A model generated the notes under the pieces. That model was not told the origin of the DNA and ran no database searches. It was given only the letters and a program-made list of their open reading frames with translations. A stretch of 64,000 nt of DNA, taken from contig JAEUHN010000029.1 in NCBI GenBank assembly GCA_016795365.1, forward strand, positions 248,001 through 312,000. Direction: 5' to 3'. The DNA comes from Verrucomicrobiaceae bacterium. Its GTDB lineage: Bacteria; Verrucomicrobiota; Verrucomicrobiia; Verrucomicrobiales; Verrucomicrobiaceae. Position numbers and translations under genes: made by a program. Positions 33,050 to 41,820 of this stretch are shown piece after piece (the first letter of the stretch is position 1; every line of letters starts with the position of its first letter).

Positions 33050-35020
33050 TTGAAACTCAAAAAACTGCCTTCTTCACTTTCTCTCCATCGCGTCATGGTG
33101 ACGTGTGTGTTGAGCTTCGCCCTCGACGACGTCTCGTTAGTTTCTCTCTCTGCGGCAGAGTCAGGATCTAAGGCGAAACCACCCATCAAGGCCGACAAGA
33201 AGTCGGAGGCGAACCCAAGCACCAAACCACTGCCAAAGCCTTCGCAACCCGACGATCCGCAAACCACCGCCAAGAAAGCCTTCAAGCAGGATGTGGAAAA
33301 ATTTGCAGCCAAATACTGCTTCGAGTGCCATGGCAACCGGCGCTCGAAAGCTGGGCTCAATCTTGAGATCGCCATACGCAAGCCCGGTGATCCAGGCTTT
33401 TCACGCAAGTGGATGGAGTGCATCGCGAATGTGCAGGCGCATGACATGCCGCCGGATGATGCGGATCAGCCCTCGGACGACGAGCGGCAGCGCTTTCTAA
33501 ATGCGCTGGCGCAAATCAAATACCTCGCGGCTCGCGATCCGGGGCCGTTTGTGATTCGTCGGCTCACAAAGGTCGAGTATGGGAACACGCTGCACGACAT
33601 CCTCGGCGTCGATGCCGCGATAGCGAAGGAATTGCCGGATGAAGTGTCGGGTGAGGGCTATCTCAACTCGCTCTCGCCCATGCAGACCGAGCAGTATCTC
33701 GGCATCGCGAATGCGGCTTTACAGAAGATGCCAGTCGAGGCTCAAAAACGGCTGTTTGGAGCCAAGGAGGCGGATGTGCGAGATGTGGCGCAAAAACTCG
33801 CCCGCATCGCTTATCGCCGTCCGCCGACGGAGGCCGAACTTGATGTGCTCGTGAAGGTTTTCGATCTCGGCAAGGCCAACAAACTCGATCGCACTGCGGC
33901 GCTCAGATTGATGCTGAAGGCGGTGCTTGTCTCGCCACAGTTCCTTTTCATCACGCCGTCCAAAGACGCGCCGACCGGCGAGAAGATCGTGCCGCTGGAT
34001 GATTACCAGCTCGCCAGCCGCCTCTCTTATCTCCTTTGGGCCAGGATGCCGGATGAGGAGCTCTCAAAGCTCGCCGATGAAGGCAAGCTGCATGAGCCCG
34101 AGGTGCTCAAAGCCCAAACGAAGCGACTGTTGGCCGACAAACGCTCGCGGGCGCTGTTTGATGGCTTTGGAGCGCAGTGGCTCGGCACGGCGGAGTTGAA
34201 GGATAAGACCTTCGATGCGCTAAAATTCCCCCAAATGACGCCGGAACTGCGCACGGCGATGTATGACGAGGCGCGACTGTTCTTTGAAAGCATCGTGCGC
34301 GAGAACCGCAGCGTCGTCAGCTTCGTGAATAGCGACTACACCTTCCTCAACGGCACGCTCGCGAAGATCTACGGCCTCGAAAAGCAGATCACGGGCGATG
34401 CGATGCAGAAGGTAAAGCTCAGCGACGCGAACCGCGGCGGCATCCTCGGAATGCCCGGCGTGCTCGCGACCACATCCTTCGCCACACGCACCAGCGCCGT
34501 GAAACGCGGCGTATGGGTGCTGGAGCAGGTGCTCGGTCAGCGCGTGCCACCTGCGCCGCCAAATGTGCCTGCCCTGGAAAAGCAGGATCAGAAGAAGGTG
34601 GCCAATCTCACGCTGCGCCAGCGCACGGAACTGCATCGCACGAACCCCGTGTGCGCCAACTGCCACAAGATCCTCGACCCTATCGGCTTCGGTTTGGAAA
34701 ACTTCGATGCCATCGGCCGCTGGCGCGACAAGGACGAGTCCGGTGGCCCCATCGACGCCGTCGGCGAACTCCCCGGTGGCAAACGTTTCTCGTCCCCCAA
34801 AGAACTCAAAGCCCTCATCGCCGCCCGCGAGACCGATTTGACCCGCAACCTCACCGAGAAGCTTCTCGCCTACGCCCTCTGCCGCCAGCTCGATGGCTAC
34901 GACCACATCATCGTGGACCAGATGCTCCATACCATCGCCAACGACGGCTACAAAATGCAGACGCTCATCAGCGAGATCGTGACGAGCTATCCTTTCTTGA
35001 ATCGACGCGTGGTGGAGTAG
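33050..35020 (+). CDS. DUF1592/DUF1587/DUF1588/DUF1585 cytochrome-like protein
   Basis: A 656 aa protein with the modular order typical of planctomycete-type secreted proteins. A CFECHG heme motif is followed by DUF1587 ([19 protein letters not shown], about 165-185), DUF1595, DUF1592 ([21 protein letters not shown]), DUF1588 ([16 protein letters not shown], with a second CANCH heme-like motif) and DUF1585 at the C-terminus ([13 protein letters not shown]...[11 protein letters not shown]). A weak leader precedes a Pro/Lys-rich linker. The TTG at 33050 is the likely start; ATG 33095 is an alternative. The family is thought to be exported and redox-active but is uncharacterised. Normally paired with a DUF1552 gene; here that gene is 6.9 kb downstream. 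Confidence 0.9.
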
Positions 35021-37711: not shown

Positions 37712-37887
37712 ATCGTCACTGGCTATCCGTTCATGAATCACCGCTTCCATGATCGCTCGACGGCTACGACCATATCATTGCGGACCAGATGTTGGAAAGC
37801 ATCGCGAAGGACGGCTACAAATTGCAGACGCTCATCAGCGAGATCGTGACGAGTTATCCCTTGCTGAACCGGCGCGTGGTGGAGTGA
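37712..37887 (+). pseudogene. Two tandem fragments of DUF1592-gene 3' ends
   Basis: Bases 37712-37747 translate to IVTGYPFMNHRF and 37756-37887 to [20 protein letters not shown] through LISEIVTSY to LLNRRVVE and a stop. The latter matches the last 44 codons of the intact DUF1592 gene (ending 35020) with only a few substitutions; the former resembles the same terminal motif from a different paralogue. Nothing upstream encodes the rest, so these are leftovers of recombination or deletion involving DUF1592-type genes. Confidence 0.85.
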
Positions 37888-37894
37888 GGCTAAT

Positions 37895-37918
37895 TTGTGC
37901 AAAATAATTATTGCGCAA
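37895..37918. promoter_or_regulatory. AT-rich dyad before the first NTPase gene
   Basis: TTGTGCAA (37895-37902) and TTGCGCAA (37911-37918) form an inverted repeat (one mismatch) around the palindrome AATAATTATT, in an AT-rich pocket within GC-rich DNA, 28 bases before the start codon. It fits a repressor operator overlapping a promoter. Confidence 0.5.
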
Positions 37919-37946
37919 CAAATCCATTGCTTGATCATGAGCGGCC

Positions 37947-39161
37947 ATGCCCCACCCTTCCAGACTCAAGATCGGTGCCCCAGCCACGGGCGATCATTTC
38001 TTCTCACGAACGTCTCTCCGTAACCGCCTGATCAAGGCCTTGAGCCGTGATCACATCGCCTTTCTCGGTCCTCGTCGCACAGGCAAGACTTCCATTCTCC
38101 GCGACTTGGAAAAGCACCCACCGGCTGGCACCTCGGCCCTCTACCTCGATCTTCAAGGGCTCCGCAGTGTCCCGGCATGGCTGTCGCTCATGCTGAGGGA
38201 AACAAAGAAGCTGCTCCAAACCCCGCCCGACAAACTCGCGTGGCTCAAAATGGCAGGCAAAGGCACCGCCTCCGTGATCAAACGAATCGAGCAGATCAGC
38301 CTCACCGGCATCAAGCTCACCCCAGGCCAGCCCGCTGTGGACCTCTGGGAGCCTATCGCCGATGAGTTCCTCACCCTGCTCCGTGAGCACGAGCTACCCA
38401 TCGTCTTCATGCTCGACGAGTTCCCGTGGTTCCTCGGTCATGTCGCCACCAATCACAGCCCTGCCGAGCTCGATGCCACGCTGAATTGGTTCCGCAAGGT
38501 GCGCCAGGAACTCGCCGACGGCCCCACACGCTTTCTCGTCACCGGCTCCATCGGTTTGACCGGCTTGCTCCGCCGCCTCGGCCTTTCACCTGCTGCAAAC
38601 GACTTCGACAGCATCGACATTGAGCCGCTACAGGACAAAGAAGCGCTGCAATTCCTCGAAGAGCGTGCCGAGGGCGAAGGCATCGCGCTCAGCCTCGCCG
38701 CACGTCGCCACATCTTGGAGCGCCTCGGCGTCGGCTGGCCTCTGTTGCTCGCCACTTTTCTCTCCGAAGTGCAGGACCACGGCTTCCCCAAAAGCCCCAC
38801 GGTCAAAGACATCGACTACCTCTACGAAGAGCGCATGGTTCGAGGCAGTCGGAACAAATACTGCCAGGAGATGTTCACGCGGCTCACGAAACCCGAGATG
38901 TTCAGCCCCAGCGAGCGCCGACTCGCTCTTGAAATCCTCCGCGATCTCTGCCGCTCCTCAAAGGCCTTCGGCCAGGACGATTTTGACCTCCTGCATGCCC
39001 GCCTCGTCCCCGATCCCGCACATCGCAGCCTGCTCGCCACGGAACTCGACTACGTCCTCGAGACGCTCCGCCACGATGGGTATCTCGTCCGGCAGCGCGA
39101 CGGCCTGCACACCTTCGCCTCTCACATCCTGCGGGATTTCTGGCGTCACCGCACTGCATAA
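37947..39161 (+). CDS. P-loop NTPase of the AAA/STAND class
   Basis: A 404 aa cytoplasmic protein. Walker A is GPRRTGKTS (41-49), Walker B VFMLDEFPW (Asp157-Glu158), sensor-like FLVTGSIGL near 200, then EPLQDKEALQFLEE and a helical lid. The C-terminal 100 residues (LALEILRDLCRSSKAFGQDDFD...LETLRHDGYLVRQRDGLHTFAS) look like a winged helix, as in archaeal-type AAA/STAND ATPases. Members are often of unknown function and sit in mobile or defence contexts. The next gene encodes a second, different P-loop ATPase with winged helix and repeats, 58 bases downstream, suggesting a functional pair. Confidence 0.87.
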   Translation: MPHPSRLKIGAPATGDHFFSRTSLRNRLIKALSRDHIAFLGPRRTGKTSILRDLEKHPPAGTSALYLDLQGLRSVPAWLSLMLRETKKLLQTPPDKLAWLKMAGKGTASVIKRIEQISLTGIKLTPGQPAVDLWEPIADEFLTLLREHELPIVFMLDEFPWFLGHVATNHSPAELDATLNWFRKVRQELADGPTRFLVTGSIGLTGLLRRLGLSPAANDFDSIDIEPLQDKEALQFLEERAEGEGIALSLAARRHILERLGVGWPLLLATFLSEVQDHGFPKSPTVKDIDYLYEERMVRGSRNKYCQEMFTRLTKPEMFSPSERRLALEILRDLCRSSKAFGQDDFDLLHARLVPDPAHRSLLATELDYVLETLRHDGYLVRQRDGLHTFASHILRDFWRHRTA

Positions 39162-39219
39162 TCGGGCCATTCCTAGCCCGAGAACTTCCACACGGGGCAG
39201 GAATGCCCCATTTACTCCA

Positions 39220-41820
39220 ATGCCCGCAGACACCGCCCCGCCCTTCGCCCTCTACAATCCCGCGCTGCTCCCGCCGGACGTGCTCCTCTCCGAGTTCACC
39301 GCGCGCCGACCGTTGCTTGCACGCCTGCTCGGCATCATCCGCGCCAATGACCCCGGCGAGCCACCGCAGCACGTCCTCTGCGTCGGCCCACGCGGCATGG
39401 GAAAGACCACGCTGCTCTGCGCCATCGCCGCCAGCATCAAGCTCCACGAGCCCGAACTCGCGAAGCACTGGCAGCCCGTCATCTTTGACGAAGAAAGCCG
39501 CCGCATCGGCGACCTCGCCGACTTCTGGCTCGAGTGCATCCGCCAGTGGGAGTCCGAGACCGAGCCCACGCTCACCCGCAGCCATCGCATTGATGCCCTC
39601 CTCGCCAAGCCCGGCCCCGACATCGAGGACAAGGCCCGCGAAGTCTTCCTCTCCCTCGTCAATGCCAGCGGCAAACGCGCCCTCCTGCTCATCGACAACC
39701 TCAACGACATCTTCATCGCCGTGAACGATGCTGAGTCCCTCATGCGCCTGCGCTCCTTCCTCATGAGCGATCCGCGCGTCATGATCATCGGAGCCGCCAC
39801 CCGCTGGTTCAGCGATGTCACCGGCCTCGACAAACCCTTCTTCGAATTCTTCCGCCCCTTCGACCTCCACGCCCTCAGCCTGGAGGAAATGCGCGAATGC
39901 CTCGCCGGAGTCGCCACCGCGCGCGGCGACCAGCGCGTGCTCGACACCCTCCGTGATCGCCCCGGCAGCATCGAAGTCCTCCACATCCTGACCGGCGGGA
40001 ATCCCCGCCTCATCCGCACCTTCTACCGCCTGCTCAACGAAGGCATGAACGGCGAACTCCGCCTCCAGCTCGAGCGCCTCATCGACGACTACACGCCCTA
40101 TCACAAAGCAATAATAGATGCCCTCCCCGGCCAGCAACAGCGCGTCATCGACGCCATCGCCCTCGAGTGGAACCCCACCGACGTCGGCACCGTCGCCCGC
40201 ACCACCCGCCTCCCCAGCAACCAAGTCAGCGCCCAGATCAAAGCCCTCATCAAAGCCGGCCTCATCAGCGAAGCAGCCAACATGGGCCACAGCAAAAAGA
40301 AGGCCTACCTGCTCACGGACCGCTTCTCGAACATTCACTACCTCATGCGGCATGGACGAACGGGGAAGCTGAAGATGCATTGGTTTGTCATGATGCTGCG
40401 AAGCTTATTTGGGGACAAAGAGTTTGCGGAGGTCGCAGCGAGAGCTGTGAGGCTAACTGCGGGGACTGGATCTAACAATGAAGGCGACTCTCTACTACTC
40501 GCGCAAAACGTGATTGAACACGCAGGCACGGAGACCGCACGACGAGAGTTTATGGACCGAATCGCGGGGTCGCCGGAATTTGATAGCGAGATCGATGTCG
40601 AGTTTGCCGAGAAAATCTGTCGCCAAGCTATCGCCGCTAACCCAACTGATGCATACGCTCACCACAAGTTTGGGCGACTATTGGACATCCATCTGAAGCG
40701 ATTCGCTGAAGCAGAAGCCGCCTACCGAAAAGCCATTGAACTCGACCCCGGTATGGCGTCGGCTTGGAACAACCTTAGCATACTGCTGGTCGATGAGTTC
40801 GGTCGCTACTCCGAAGCCGAATCCTTCTGCCGCAAGGCAATCGAGCTTGATCCAACCAGTCATTCCCGCTGGAACCGGCTGGGCATTTTGCTTTCAAACC
40901 ACTTGGGGCGATTCGCAGAAGCAGAAGCCGCCTACCGAAAAGCCATTGAACTTAGCCCTGATGAGTTTTGGCCTTGGTTTAATCTAGGATCGGTTCTGGC
41001 AAAGCGACAAAGAACAAGCAACGAGGCTGAGAGTTGTTATCGGAGAGCCATTGAAATTGCTCCAGAGAAATGGGAGCCGTGGAATGGTCTTGGGTTGCTG
41101 CTAAAGGACTACAAGTTTGACGACAAAGGAGCTGAGGAGGCATACCGAATGGCAATCGAACTAGCTCCAACTGAGTCTGCGGGTTGGAATAATCTGGGCG
41201 TTCTTTACAACGAGCGCATCGGCGACCAAAAAGTAGCGGAAGCAGCTTACAGGACAGCCATCGATTTGAAGCCCACGGACCCAAAAGCTTGGCTGAATCT
41301 TGGGAACGTTTTAACCTTAAACCTAGGGCGCCACGACGAAGCCGAAGCTGCATATCGCAAAGCAATGGAGGTAGATTCGAACTACGGACGGGCTCATTCG
41401 TGCTTGGCCATGATGTGGACAAATTTACGTCGCCAGAAAGCAGAAGCACGGCGCGAGGCCAGCGCAGGGTTCCGAAAGTCACCCGCTGAAGGCTTTTGCA
41501 GACAATGGTTTATCATCCTCTGCTTCGCCCACCCCGAAAGCCTGTGCTCAGCTCTCCCCGAAGTCAGCCACTGGTGCACCCAACACCTGGACGATCATAG
41601 CGTGCTGAGCTTCATGGTCGATGCCTGGATCGCCTACGCCAAGGTGACCAGCGCAAGCGAAGCCCGTGAGCTGCTCGATGCGCAGCCCGACGAAGTGAAA
41701 CTCGCCTTCGAGACCGTGCGCGATGCCTTCCTCGCCCACGACGACAAGGACCACCTCCACCGCCTCGCCCCCGAACGCCGCGCCCCGGTGCTCAAACTCC
41801 TCGAACGCCTGCGCAACTAG
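39220..41820 (+). CDS. STAND-like NTPase with winged helix and TPR array
   Basis: An 866 aa protein started at ATG 39220 (an in-frame extension to 38620 lies in the previous gene). Walker A is GPRGMGKTT (56-64), Walker B ALLLIDNLND (Asp159), with GGNPRLIRTFYRLL before a winged helix at about 305-380 (QRVIDAIALEW, LPSNQVSAQIKALIKAGLI). From about 470 to 730 there are seven or more TPR-like repeats (AEAAYRKAIELDP, WNNLGVL). This NTPase-wHTH-repeat layout is that of STAND signalling or sensor ATPases. GC content drops through the TPR-coding part and rises again in the last 100 codons, suggesting a swapped sensor segment. Confidence 0.87.
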   Translation: MPADTAPPFALYNPALLPPDVLLSEFTARRPLLARLLGIIRANDPGEPPQHVLCVGPRGMGKTTLLCAIAASIKLHEPELAKHWQPVIFDEESRRIGDLADFWLECIRQWESETEPTLTRSHRIDALLAKPGPDIEDKAREVFLSLVNASGKRALLLIDNLNDIFIAVNDAESLMRLRSFLMSDPRVMIIGAATRWFSDVTGLDKPFFEFFRPFDLHALSLEEMRECLAGVATARGDQRVLDTLRDRPGSIEVLHILTGGNPRLIRTFYRLLNEGMNGELRLQLERLIDDYTPYHKAIIDALPGQQQRVIDAIALEWNPTDVGTVARTTRLPSNQVSAQIKALIKAGLISEAANMGHSKKKAYLLTDRFSNIHYLMRHGRTGKLKMHWFVMMLRSLFGDKEFAEVAARAVRLTAGTGSNNEGDSLLLAQNVIEHAGTETARREFMDRIAGSPEFDSEIDVEFAEKICRQAIAANPTDAYAHHKFGRLLDIHLKRFAEAEAAYRKAIELDPGMASAWNNLSILLVDEFGRYSEAESFCRKAIELDPTSHSRWNRLGILLSNHLGRFAEAEAAYRKAIELSPDEFWPWFNLGSVLAKRQRTSNEAESCYRRAIEIAPEKWEPWNGLGLLLKDYKFDDKGAEEAYRMAIELAPTESAGWNNLGVLYNERIGDQKVAEAAYRTAIDLKPTDPKAWLNLGNVLTLNLGRHDEAEAAYRKAMEVDSNYGRAHSCLAMMWTNLRRQKAEARREASAGFRKSPAEGFCRQWFIILCFAHPESLCSALPEVSHWCTQHLDDHSVLSFMVDAWIAYAKVTSASEARELLDAQPDEVKLAFETVRDAFLAHDDKDHLHRLAPERRAPVLKLLERLRN
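40698..40952 (+). repeat. Near-identical 45-base TPR DNA repeat pair
   Basis: Bases 40698-40742 and 40908-40952 are the same except for one position, encoding RFAEAEAAYRKAIEL twice, exactly 210 bases (70 codons) apart inside the TPR array. Such identity between neighbouring repeats indicates recent duplication or gene conversion. Confidence 0.8.

Follow-up and report, generated by a model that had tools for sequence, protein, structure and literature searches.

The question raised by a 64,000-nucleotide stretch of a Verrucomicrobiaceae genome (contig JAEUHN010000029.1, positions 248,001 to 312,000; the whole stretch is termed the window hereafter) is what two adjacent P-loop NTPase genes, P1 (37947-39161, + strand, 404 aa) and P2 (39220-41820, + strand, 866 aa), might do together. 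An initial annotation had proposed a sensor pair for defence or signalling, encoded by co-directional genes 58 bases apart; coordinates and strand bear out this layout, with 58 bp between the two, and the reading frame of P2 can also be called from an upstream TTG (38620-41820). We favour, at a probability of roughly 0.55, an autoregulated, horizontally moving, NLR-like conflict or surveillance module that is probably antiphage. Since the two genes encode partner molecular switches that resemble plant and animal immune receptors, and travel between bacteria together with an apparent control site of their own and an exchangeable detector, they are probably an undescribed surveillance or anti-virus system.

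In nearly all loci the gene immediately before a P2 homologue is a P1 homologue, and hence the pairing is more than chance. Within the phylum, a P1 homologue preceded P2 in all 35 loci fetched, and the 34 gaps measured range from -8 to +41 bp; one of these P1 homologues is split (L068), another is cut by a contig end (L096), and in five the P1 gene was recognised as the upstream neighbour and not by tblastn. A further 41 loci came from a scan of GTDB genomes, in Verrucomicrobiota, Planctomycetota, Myxococcota, Acidobacteriota, Pseudomonadota and others. With the fragment L140 and two duplicates set aside, 38 non-redundant named loci remain. P1 or recognisable parts of it, counting fragments and frameshifted copies, lay beside P2 in 36 of them, the exceptions being L132 and L139; in eight of the 36, a six-frame profile search was needed to find or complete P1, which in most of these eight is split, cut or partial. 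In combination, P1 or its remains adjoin P2 in 71 of 73 non-redundant loci, which is the conserved co-occurrence that the initial annotation had recommended looking for, and the pair is a conserved two-gene module. The two proteins have also diverged together, the tree distances of P1 and of the P2 NTPase part being correlated at r = 0.919 (61 pairs), where the highest value among 999 permutations was 0.18. Two genomes (G047 and G095) each hold three different P1-P2 pairs; the window genome has one copy of P1. A plasmid of Segatella copri (L146:7986-10033) bears a P1 relative followed by a 298-aa ATP-binding protein without a sensor, next to a WYL regulator, an arrangement that is a possible minimal form of the pair.

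The module moves horizontally, and its distribution is patchy across phyla and plasmids. A P1 homologue was found in 19 of the 96 genomes searched as relatives (the window genome included), and, among 387 genomes from the phylum, 14 have the NTPase part of P2 at E ≤ 1e-12. Relationships also cross phyla, and the housekeeping distribution that would have refuted the initial proposal was not seen. Between the window and a genome of a different genus (G009, locus L065), the cassette is common at 79% nucleotide identity and the flanks are without a blastn match, the blastn block covering 37891-40952 and DNA similarity ending at 41794, inside P2. P1 is 87% and residues 1-405 of P2 are 94% identical between the two genomes, the value for RpoB being 84.7%. 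In a quick 78-row tree, the next sister of the window and G009 copies is that of Pirellula (Planctomycetota), and an Akkermansia copy stands beside one from Vicinamibacteria. The nine phylum labels, assigned from record titles in the case of the named loci, change 14 times on this tree, where the minimum possible is 8 and shuffles give 30; the family is thus clustered by phylum, yet has crossed phyla repeatedly.

Both proteins had been described as a P-loop NTPase domain followed by a winged helix, and this architecture is recovered in the fold of the P1 model and, for P2, in Pfam matches and the model. For P1, Pfam returned only AAA_14 and AAA_22, both sub-threshold, and a single-sequence search of solved structures gave nothing useful. 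The AlphaFold2 model (mean predicted local distance difference test score, pLDDT, 88) has an NTPase followed by helical and winged-helix domains over residues 5-404, as is the case in STAND proteins, and aligned along almost its entire length with the archaeal ATPase 2qen (Z 24.4, root-mean-square deviation 5.1, 334 residues) and nearly end to end with a second archaeal ATPase, 2fna (Z 22.9). The next-best matches were plant NLR resistosomes and CED-4 (Z 17-20), and a profile of 32 P1 sequences matches 2fna at 1.1e-9. Because of these near-full-length alignments and the profile match, P1 looks like a bare STAND switch, with neither sensor repeats nor a recognised effector. Its Walker A motif, GPRRTGKT, occupies residues 41-48 (38067-38090, + strand) and its Walker B residues DE lie at 157-158; across the 32 sequences D157 and E158 are invariant, and R43, R44, G46, K47 and T48 occur in at least 90%.

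P2 begins with a STAND/ORC-Cdc6-like NTPase and winged helix (residues 1-385; 39220-40374, + strand) that carries the motif HxLxxGxRGxGKT and invariant residues E91, N160 and R178. A TPR (tetratricopeptide repeat) superhelix follows, the hypervariable sensor (residues 386-760; 40375-41499, + strand), and then a C-terminal cap (residues 761-866; 41500-41820, + strand) with HLHRLAPERRAPVLKLLERLRN at its end. Pfam matched AAA_16 at 36.3 bits (cut-off 32.6), NACHT at 27.0 (cut-off 26.7) and many TPR models, and the structural model shows an NTPase, a winged helix, a TPR superhelix and a helical cap (pLDDT 87; predicted template modelling score, pTM, 0.56), so the TPR array noted at the outset is present. 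NACHT and AAA_16 above cut-off, together with a winged helix that follows the NTPase in the model and the TPR array, place P2 among STAND-type proteins. As the fold searches were filled by TPR proteins, the assessment of the P2 NTPase fold relies solely on Pfam, profiles and secondary structure; the listed matches in a sequence search of solved structures were likewise TPR proteins or TPR-bearing constructs. The winged helix (residues 304-367; 40129-40320, + strand), a candidate operator reader, gave PDB profile matches to MarR/ArsR proteins, and 15 of the 31 P2 family members have a MarR_2 match (best 6.3e-9). In both proteins the NTPase starts within some 20-30 residues of the N-terminus, and no other Pfam domain, and hence no fused effector, was found there; the earlier statement that no effector domain is recognised holds in Pfam and PADLOC scans and in the survey of neighbouring genes.

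These folds bear on a different idea, namely that both are ORC/Cdc6- or TnsC-like AAA+ proteins acting as initiators or transposition targeting factors at the pair of DNA boxes described below. The P1 fold is indeed near those of ORC (Z 14-19) and TnsC (Z 14-15), the boxes are paired, and ORC-CDC6-like (PF24389) has matches in 15 of the 31 P2 family members at E ≤ 0.01, the window P2 being without a match at E 0.001. However, the closest folds are those of STAND ATPases and NLRs, no helicase, transposase or replicon genes recur beside the module, and hypervariable TPRs would have no evident role in such machinery, which makes this explanation very improbable.

The P2 sensor is exchanged or diversified separately from the NTPases. 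Sixteen locus pairs have P1 proteins of 80% identity or higher, and in 15 of these (the exception is L141/L143) conservation is lower in the middle of P2 than over its first 400 residues; the step falls near residue 440. In the copies of G047 and G014 (L098 and L099) the NTPases are 99% and the sensors 55% identical. These copies come from two genera and occupy the same locus; their nucleotide identity is 81-89% upstream, 96-99% across P1 and the greater part of the P2 NTPase, 67-73% in the sensor, and 79-87% beyond the module. Synonymous divergence (dS) is 0.03 in P1, 0.11 in residues 1-400 of P2 and 1.70 in the sensor; in the Moraxella plasmid copies L142 and L143 the corresponding values are 0.08, 0.25 and saturated. 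The ratio of nonsynonymous to synonymous divergence was below 1 wherever computable, which indicates recombination or a long-separate history and not proven positive selection. Between the window and G009, residues 801-850 of P2 are 98% identical and the TPRs 44-68%; the TPR DNA of G009 contains a 10.4-copy, 105-bp tandem array and the window copy none that is detectable, and therefore TPR number varies. G+C content at third codon positions was lower in the sensor than in the NTPase in 30 of 32 loci (means 0.54 and 0.72), the window P2 having 0.87 in the NTPase, 0.54 in the sensor and 0.80 in the cap. Among ten proteins or C-termini scanned with Pfam, the C-termini of L098, L099, L142 and L143 had no match at all. 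With near-identical NTPases and different sensors, L098/L099 and L142/L143 would allow a direct test of what each sensor recognises.

Such variability is also what would be expected if the TPRs read the non-self of related bacteria, as fungal NLRs do in allorecognition, and passages of PMC10907252 propose this for other STAND sensors of multicellular bacteria. Against this kin-recognition role stands the presence of the module in defence clusters on plasmids, and we regard it as quite unlikely. The same source describes STAND antigen sensors diversified by diversity-generating retroelements (DGRs), which resemble P2 in having a fast-changing C-terminal sensor on a STAND receptor. The diversity of P2 differs in that it looks like repeat turnover and recombination; no search aimed at DGRs was made. 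A 1748-aa relative of P2 (L097:3820-9066, in G398) has an additional second NACHT domain and an FGE-sulfatase domain, the latter a fold that serves as the hypermutated antigen sensor in DGR systems, and its neighbours of 1050-1063 aa appear by eye to be nucleotide-cyclase-like.

A control region carried with the cassette precedes P1 (37891-37946, + strand), the homology with G009 starting at 37891. Within it, the AT-rich dyad of the initial annotation is present as a two-box operator-like element, TTGTGCAA-N8-TTGCGCAA (37895-37918, + strand), with box starts 16 bp apart, and is conserved in G009. It is the only exact TTGYRCAA-N8-TTGYRCAA in the 6.7-Mb genome. Across the family (duplicates or near-duplicates L107, L120, L091, L094, L141 and L142 and the fragment L140 set aside), a strong palindrome, defined as one matched by at most one of 30 shuffles, lies upstream of P1 in 32 of 59 loci. 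As controls served 300 regions that precede other genes of these loci, of which 33 have such a palindrome (odds ratio 9.6, p 2e-12, with the caveat that related loci are not independent). A motif-free test for inverted exact 8-mers within 40 bp gave 34/61 against 37/279, and 14 against 4 at a distance of 16. Box types differ by clade (TTGCGCAA, TTGCCAA, CGTACG, TTCATATGAA, ATACA and CAACA), and in loci where two boxes are found they are mostly spaced by 16 bp, with 15 bp in the TTGCCAA type. The TTGCGCAA type goes with the module in Verrucomicrobiota, Planctomycetota, Acidobacteriota and Pseudomonadota, a distribution that suggests an operator reader encoded in the module itself. In most P2 proteins of the TTGCGCAA class the helix has the sequence SNxVS or SNxIS; in the TTGCCAA class it is mostly SSHAS.

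Whole-genome searches covered 16 genomes, selected for boxes already noticed in them, and in every one the two-box pattern precedes P1 or what is left of it. No second exact site was found in 14 of them; G465 has two more, which overlap, and G467 one more, none being beside P1 or P2. The presence of the element at the module alone in these 14 genomes suggests that it is private to the module and serves autoregulation. The TTCATATGAA pair occurs once each in G014 and G047 and is absent from five genomes, of which G039 has a single such box at its module and the others bear other boxes. The extra TTGCGCAA pair of G467 (L193, G467:C147:7082-7105) lies near an ORF (open reading frame) that by eye resembles a Vsr-type endonuclease, and may be the operator of another module. 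A promoter and terminator scan was uninformative (1 promoter-like site, 0.9 expected).

A winged helix and an operator-like element together raise the alternative of a transcription regulator. MalT/AfsR STAND transcription factors combine a STAND NTPase with a TPR sensor, and the SWACOS members have a C-terminal LuxR-type helix-turn-helix. P2 shares with them the NTPase, the TPR sensor and a candidate DNA-binding winged helix, of MarR/ArsR-like type, and could likewise sense a host signal through its TPRs and regulate genes through DNA binding, with P1 as an accessory NTPase in a signalling and not a defence function. The operator-like boxes before the operon would fit, as would the ATACA-class boxes, which by eye lie just before a TTGACA-like hexamer. 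P2, however, has no C-terminal LuxR-type Pfam match (E 0.001), and its candidate sites lie almost only at its own promoter, with the two-box site confined to the module in 14 of 16 genomes, so that no regulon reads these boxes in those 14. A patchy, phylum-crossing spread and a separately changing sensor are also unlike a host regulator, and a MalT-like role is in our judgement unlikely.

The neighbourhoods of plasmid copies favour defence. P2 matches were found in six plasmid records, and neighbours were examined in five. NZ_CP024445 has QatC/QatD-type genes and a cluster of CARF, PRTase-CE, ORC-CDC6-like and N6-methylase genes, NZ_CP024184 has the same-named gene cluster, and AP031474 has a PD-Lambda-4/Avs4-like gene nearby. 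Pycsar and AbiE genes lie near P2 on a Sphingobium plasmid, where P1 was not seen at the record start, and cyclase and ThiF genes lie beside a P2 without P1 on an Agrobacterium plasmid. On the Moraxella osloensis plasmid pSKB0120-2 (L142:7122-10868), the gene directly after P2 matches PD-Lambda-4_A (5.6e-127) and, over its N-terminus, Avs4, and the gene after that has an NPHP3_N-type STAND domain. Families around chromosomal copies include AbiE, AriA, HEC-01 and PD-Lambda-2; at 1e-15, 39 PADLOC families were found in 112 phylum-neighbour proteins (loci other than L091, L094, L097 and L099, proteins up to about 1040 aa) and 44 in 124 neighbours of named loci, against 19 in 121 same-contig control proteins, a comparison that is weak because the numbers of loci differ and families were listed instead of loci. 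Of the initial proposal, then, the sensor type stands, given the STAND folds, near-strict pairing and TPR sensor, as does a defence association on plasmids; around chromosomal copies that association is modest, and the defence function is putative.

Plasmid carriage, and two genes that lie close together behind an operator-like site of their own, could also belong to a toxin-antitoxin-like or addiction module, in which one NTPase would be harmful alone, the other and the operator would restrain it, and the whole would persist by addiction. Such a module is distinctly improbable, since no toxin fold is recognised, the protein sizes and TPR sensor are atypical, and P1 is split or shortened in L068, L100, L115, L130, L131 and L135 whilst P2 stays open, although some of these cases are possibly assembly errors. 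On plasmid NZ_CP024184 (L141:7933-9969), an IS5 transposase gene interrupts P1, and P2 again stays open.

Literature searches retrieved no paper listed as describing the P1-P2 pair; PMC12839542, PMC10907252, PMC13092281 and PMC7159879 concern related but different STAND and ternary conflict systems. Nor does the pair match any PADLOC system, and a scan of P1 and P2 up to E = 1 returned no Avs model. The pair shares with Avs/AVAST and bNACHT systems a STAND NTPase with a TPR-type sensor, a patchy spread and a defence-island setting on plasmids, but has a second NTPase partner and a private operator-like site and lacks a fused N-terminal effector; Avs membership is accordingly not borne out. The same is true of McrB-like ATPases, as P1 and P2 gave no McrB- or McrC-type Pfam or PADLOC match and the partner is a second STAND NTPase. 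The MADS protein mad8 reached only 23 bits, over the P-loop of P2 (residues 49-130), and the adjacent genes are DUF1592, BNR, DUF1552 and tannase genes. The structures 2qen and 2fna, which we take to be MNS/COG1672-type STAND ATPases, share with P1 a fold over nearly the whole length and profile similarity, but P1 belongs to a two-gene operon that is nearly fixed and also encodes a partner with TPRs. In sensor/helper NLR pairs, such as NAIP-NLRC4 and the NRC network, one NLR has a variable sensor and its partner has none. P1 and P2 are similarly both STAND-type switches of which P2 alone has a variable sensor, yet P1 has no known effector domain, and the likeness is one of working principle, not membership.

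Under the favoured surveillance reading, P2 would be the receptor, whose TPR superhelix would bind a protein ligand that varies and most likely originates from a phage or another invader, and whose STAND NTPase would switch state. P1, an almost obligatory partner of the same nucleotide-binding, helical and winged-helix domain fold without a sensor, would probably form a single complex with P2, in the manner of sensor and helper NLRs. The private two-box operator before P1 would set the dose through autoregulated expression, its reader, probably the MarR-like winged helix of P2, acting as repressor or activator. Output may come from the P1-P2 assembly itself or from a protein encoded elsewhere. 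A more ambitious version, which we put forward tentatively and consider possible but doubtful, is a new class of NLR-pair immunity in which P2 is both an exchangeable-TPR receptor and a DNA-binding autoregulator and the response arises from the P1-P2 assembly without a classical effector. In this version, with the operator diversified by clade at a constant box spacing of 15-16 bp, the complete regulatory circuit would accompany the module from phylum to phylum. If the surveillance reading holds, the module would represent, in several phyla, a bacterial equivalent in simple form of paired sensor/helper NLRs, and would raise the question of how an NLR-like pair without an effector domain yields an outcome.

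Several observations weigh against the surveillance reading. No homologue was present in the viral contigs or phage records searched, and the slight enrichment of defence genes around chromosomal copies relative to controls is suggestive only. No effector domain and no recurrent third gene were found among 519 neighbours of 71 loci; neighbour families recur in 3-6 loci at most, one five-locus cluster being P1 itself, and a conserved third gene as effector was rejected since none occurs in more than 6 of the 71. P2 copies without P1 exist in L132, L139 and L145 (the Agrobacterium plasmid). The 16 locus pairs that indicate sensor exchange overlap and are not independent, four show a small drop (L090/L091/L094, L125/L127), and the jump in dS could also arise if the NTPase part had recently been transferred or converted, instead of the sensor having been replaced. 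Scored as a plain palindrome, the window dyad is not above shuffles (8 of 30 are as good), and the window is not among the 32 loci with a strong palindrome. Lastly, a column test of the recognition helix against operator class was not discriminating (N334 ranked 19th of 407), and as it did not single out this helix, we infer rather than observe that P2 is the operator reader.

The insertion site had been described as rearranged and lying between DUF1592 and DUF1552 genes, and this is supported by the order in the window, which is DUF1592 (ending at 35020), a BNR gene, a DUF1592 remnant, P1-P2 and DUF1552. In G010, G016 and G009 (L153-L155) the end of DUF1592 directly precedes DUF1552, and therefore the site in the window has been opened. 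No tRNA or tmRNA insertion site was found within the window, and such a gene is present in 8 of 47 loci, only that of L074 being within about 500 bp of a pair; tRNA/tmRNA insertion was therefore rejected. In G025 (L156), DUF1592 and DUF1552 are some 780 bp apart. In G001 (L152), of the same genus as the window, DUF1552 is preceded by an ORF that is Maf-like by eye, without DUF1592, and so that genome offers no empty site; the DUF1592-DUF1552 pair is hence not always kept together.

Directly upstream of the cassette lies the DUF1592-type 3'-end remnant (37755-37888, + strand), which reads ...EIVTSYPLLNRRVVE* and marks the disturbed site. Its positions 37755-37885 (131 bp) are 86% identical by blastn to 34888-35018, the 3' end of the full DUF1592 copy, and the homology with G009 starts, at 37891, within three bases of the remnant's stop. 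A third, shorter 3'-end fragment was seen by eye and as a weak blastn match at 37712-37745, so that the 3' end of DUF1592 is copied at 34888-35018, 37712-37745 and 37755-37888, a pattern suggestive of several insertion or recombination events at the end of this gene.

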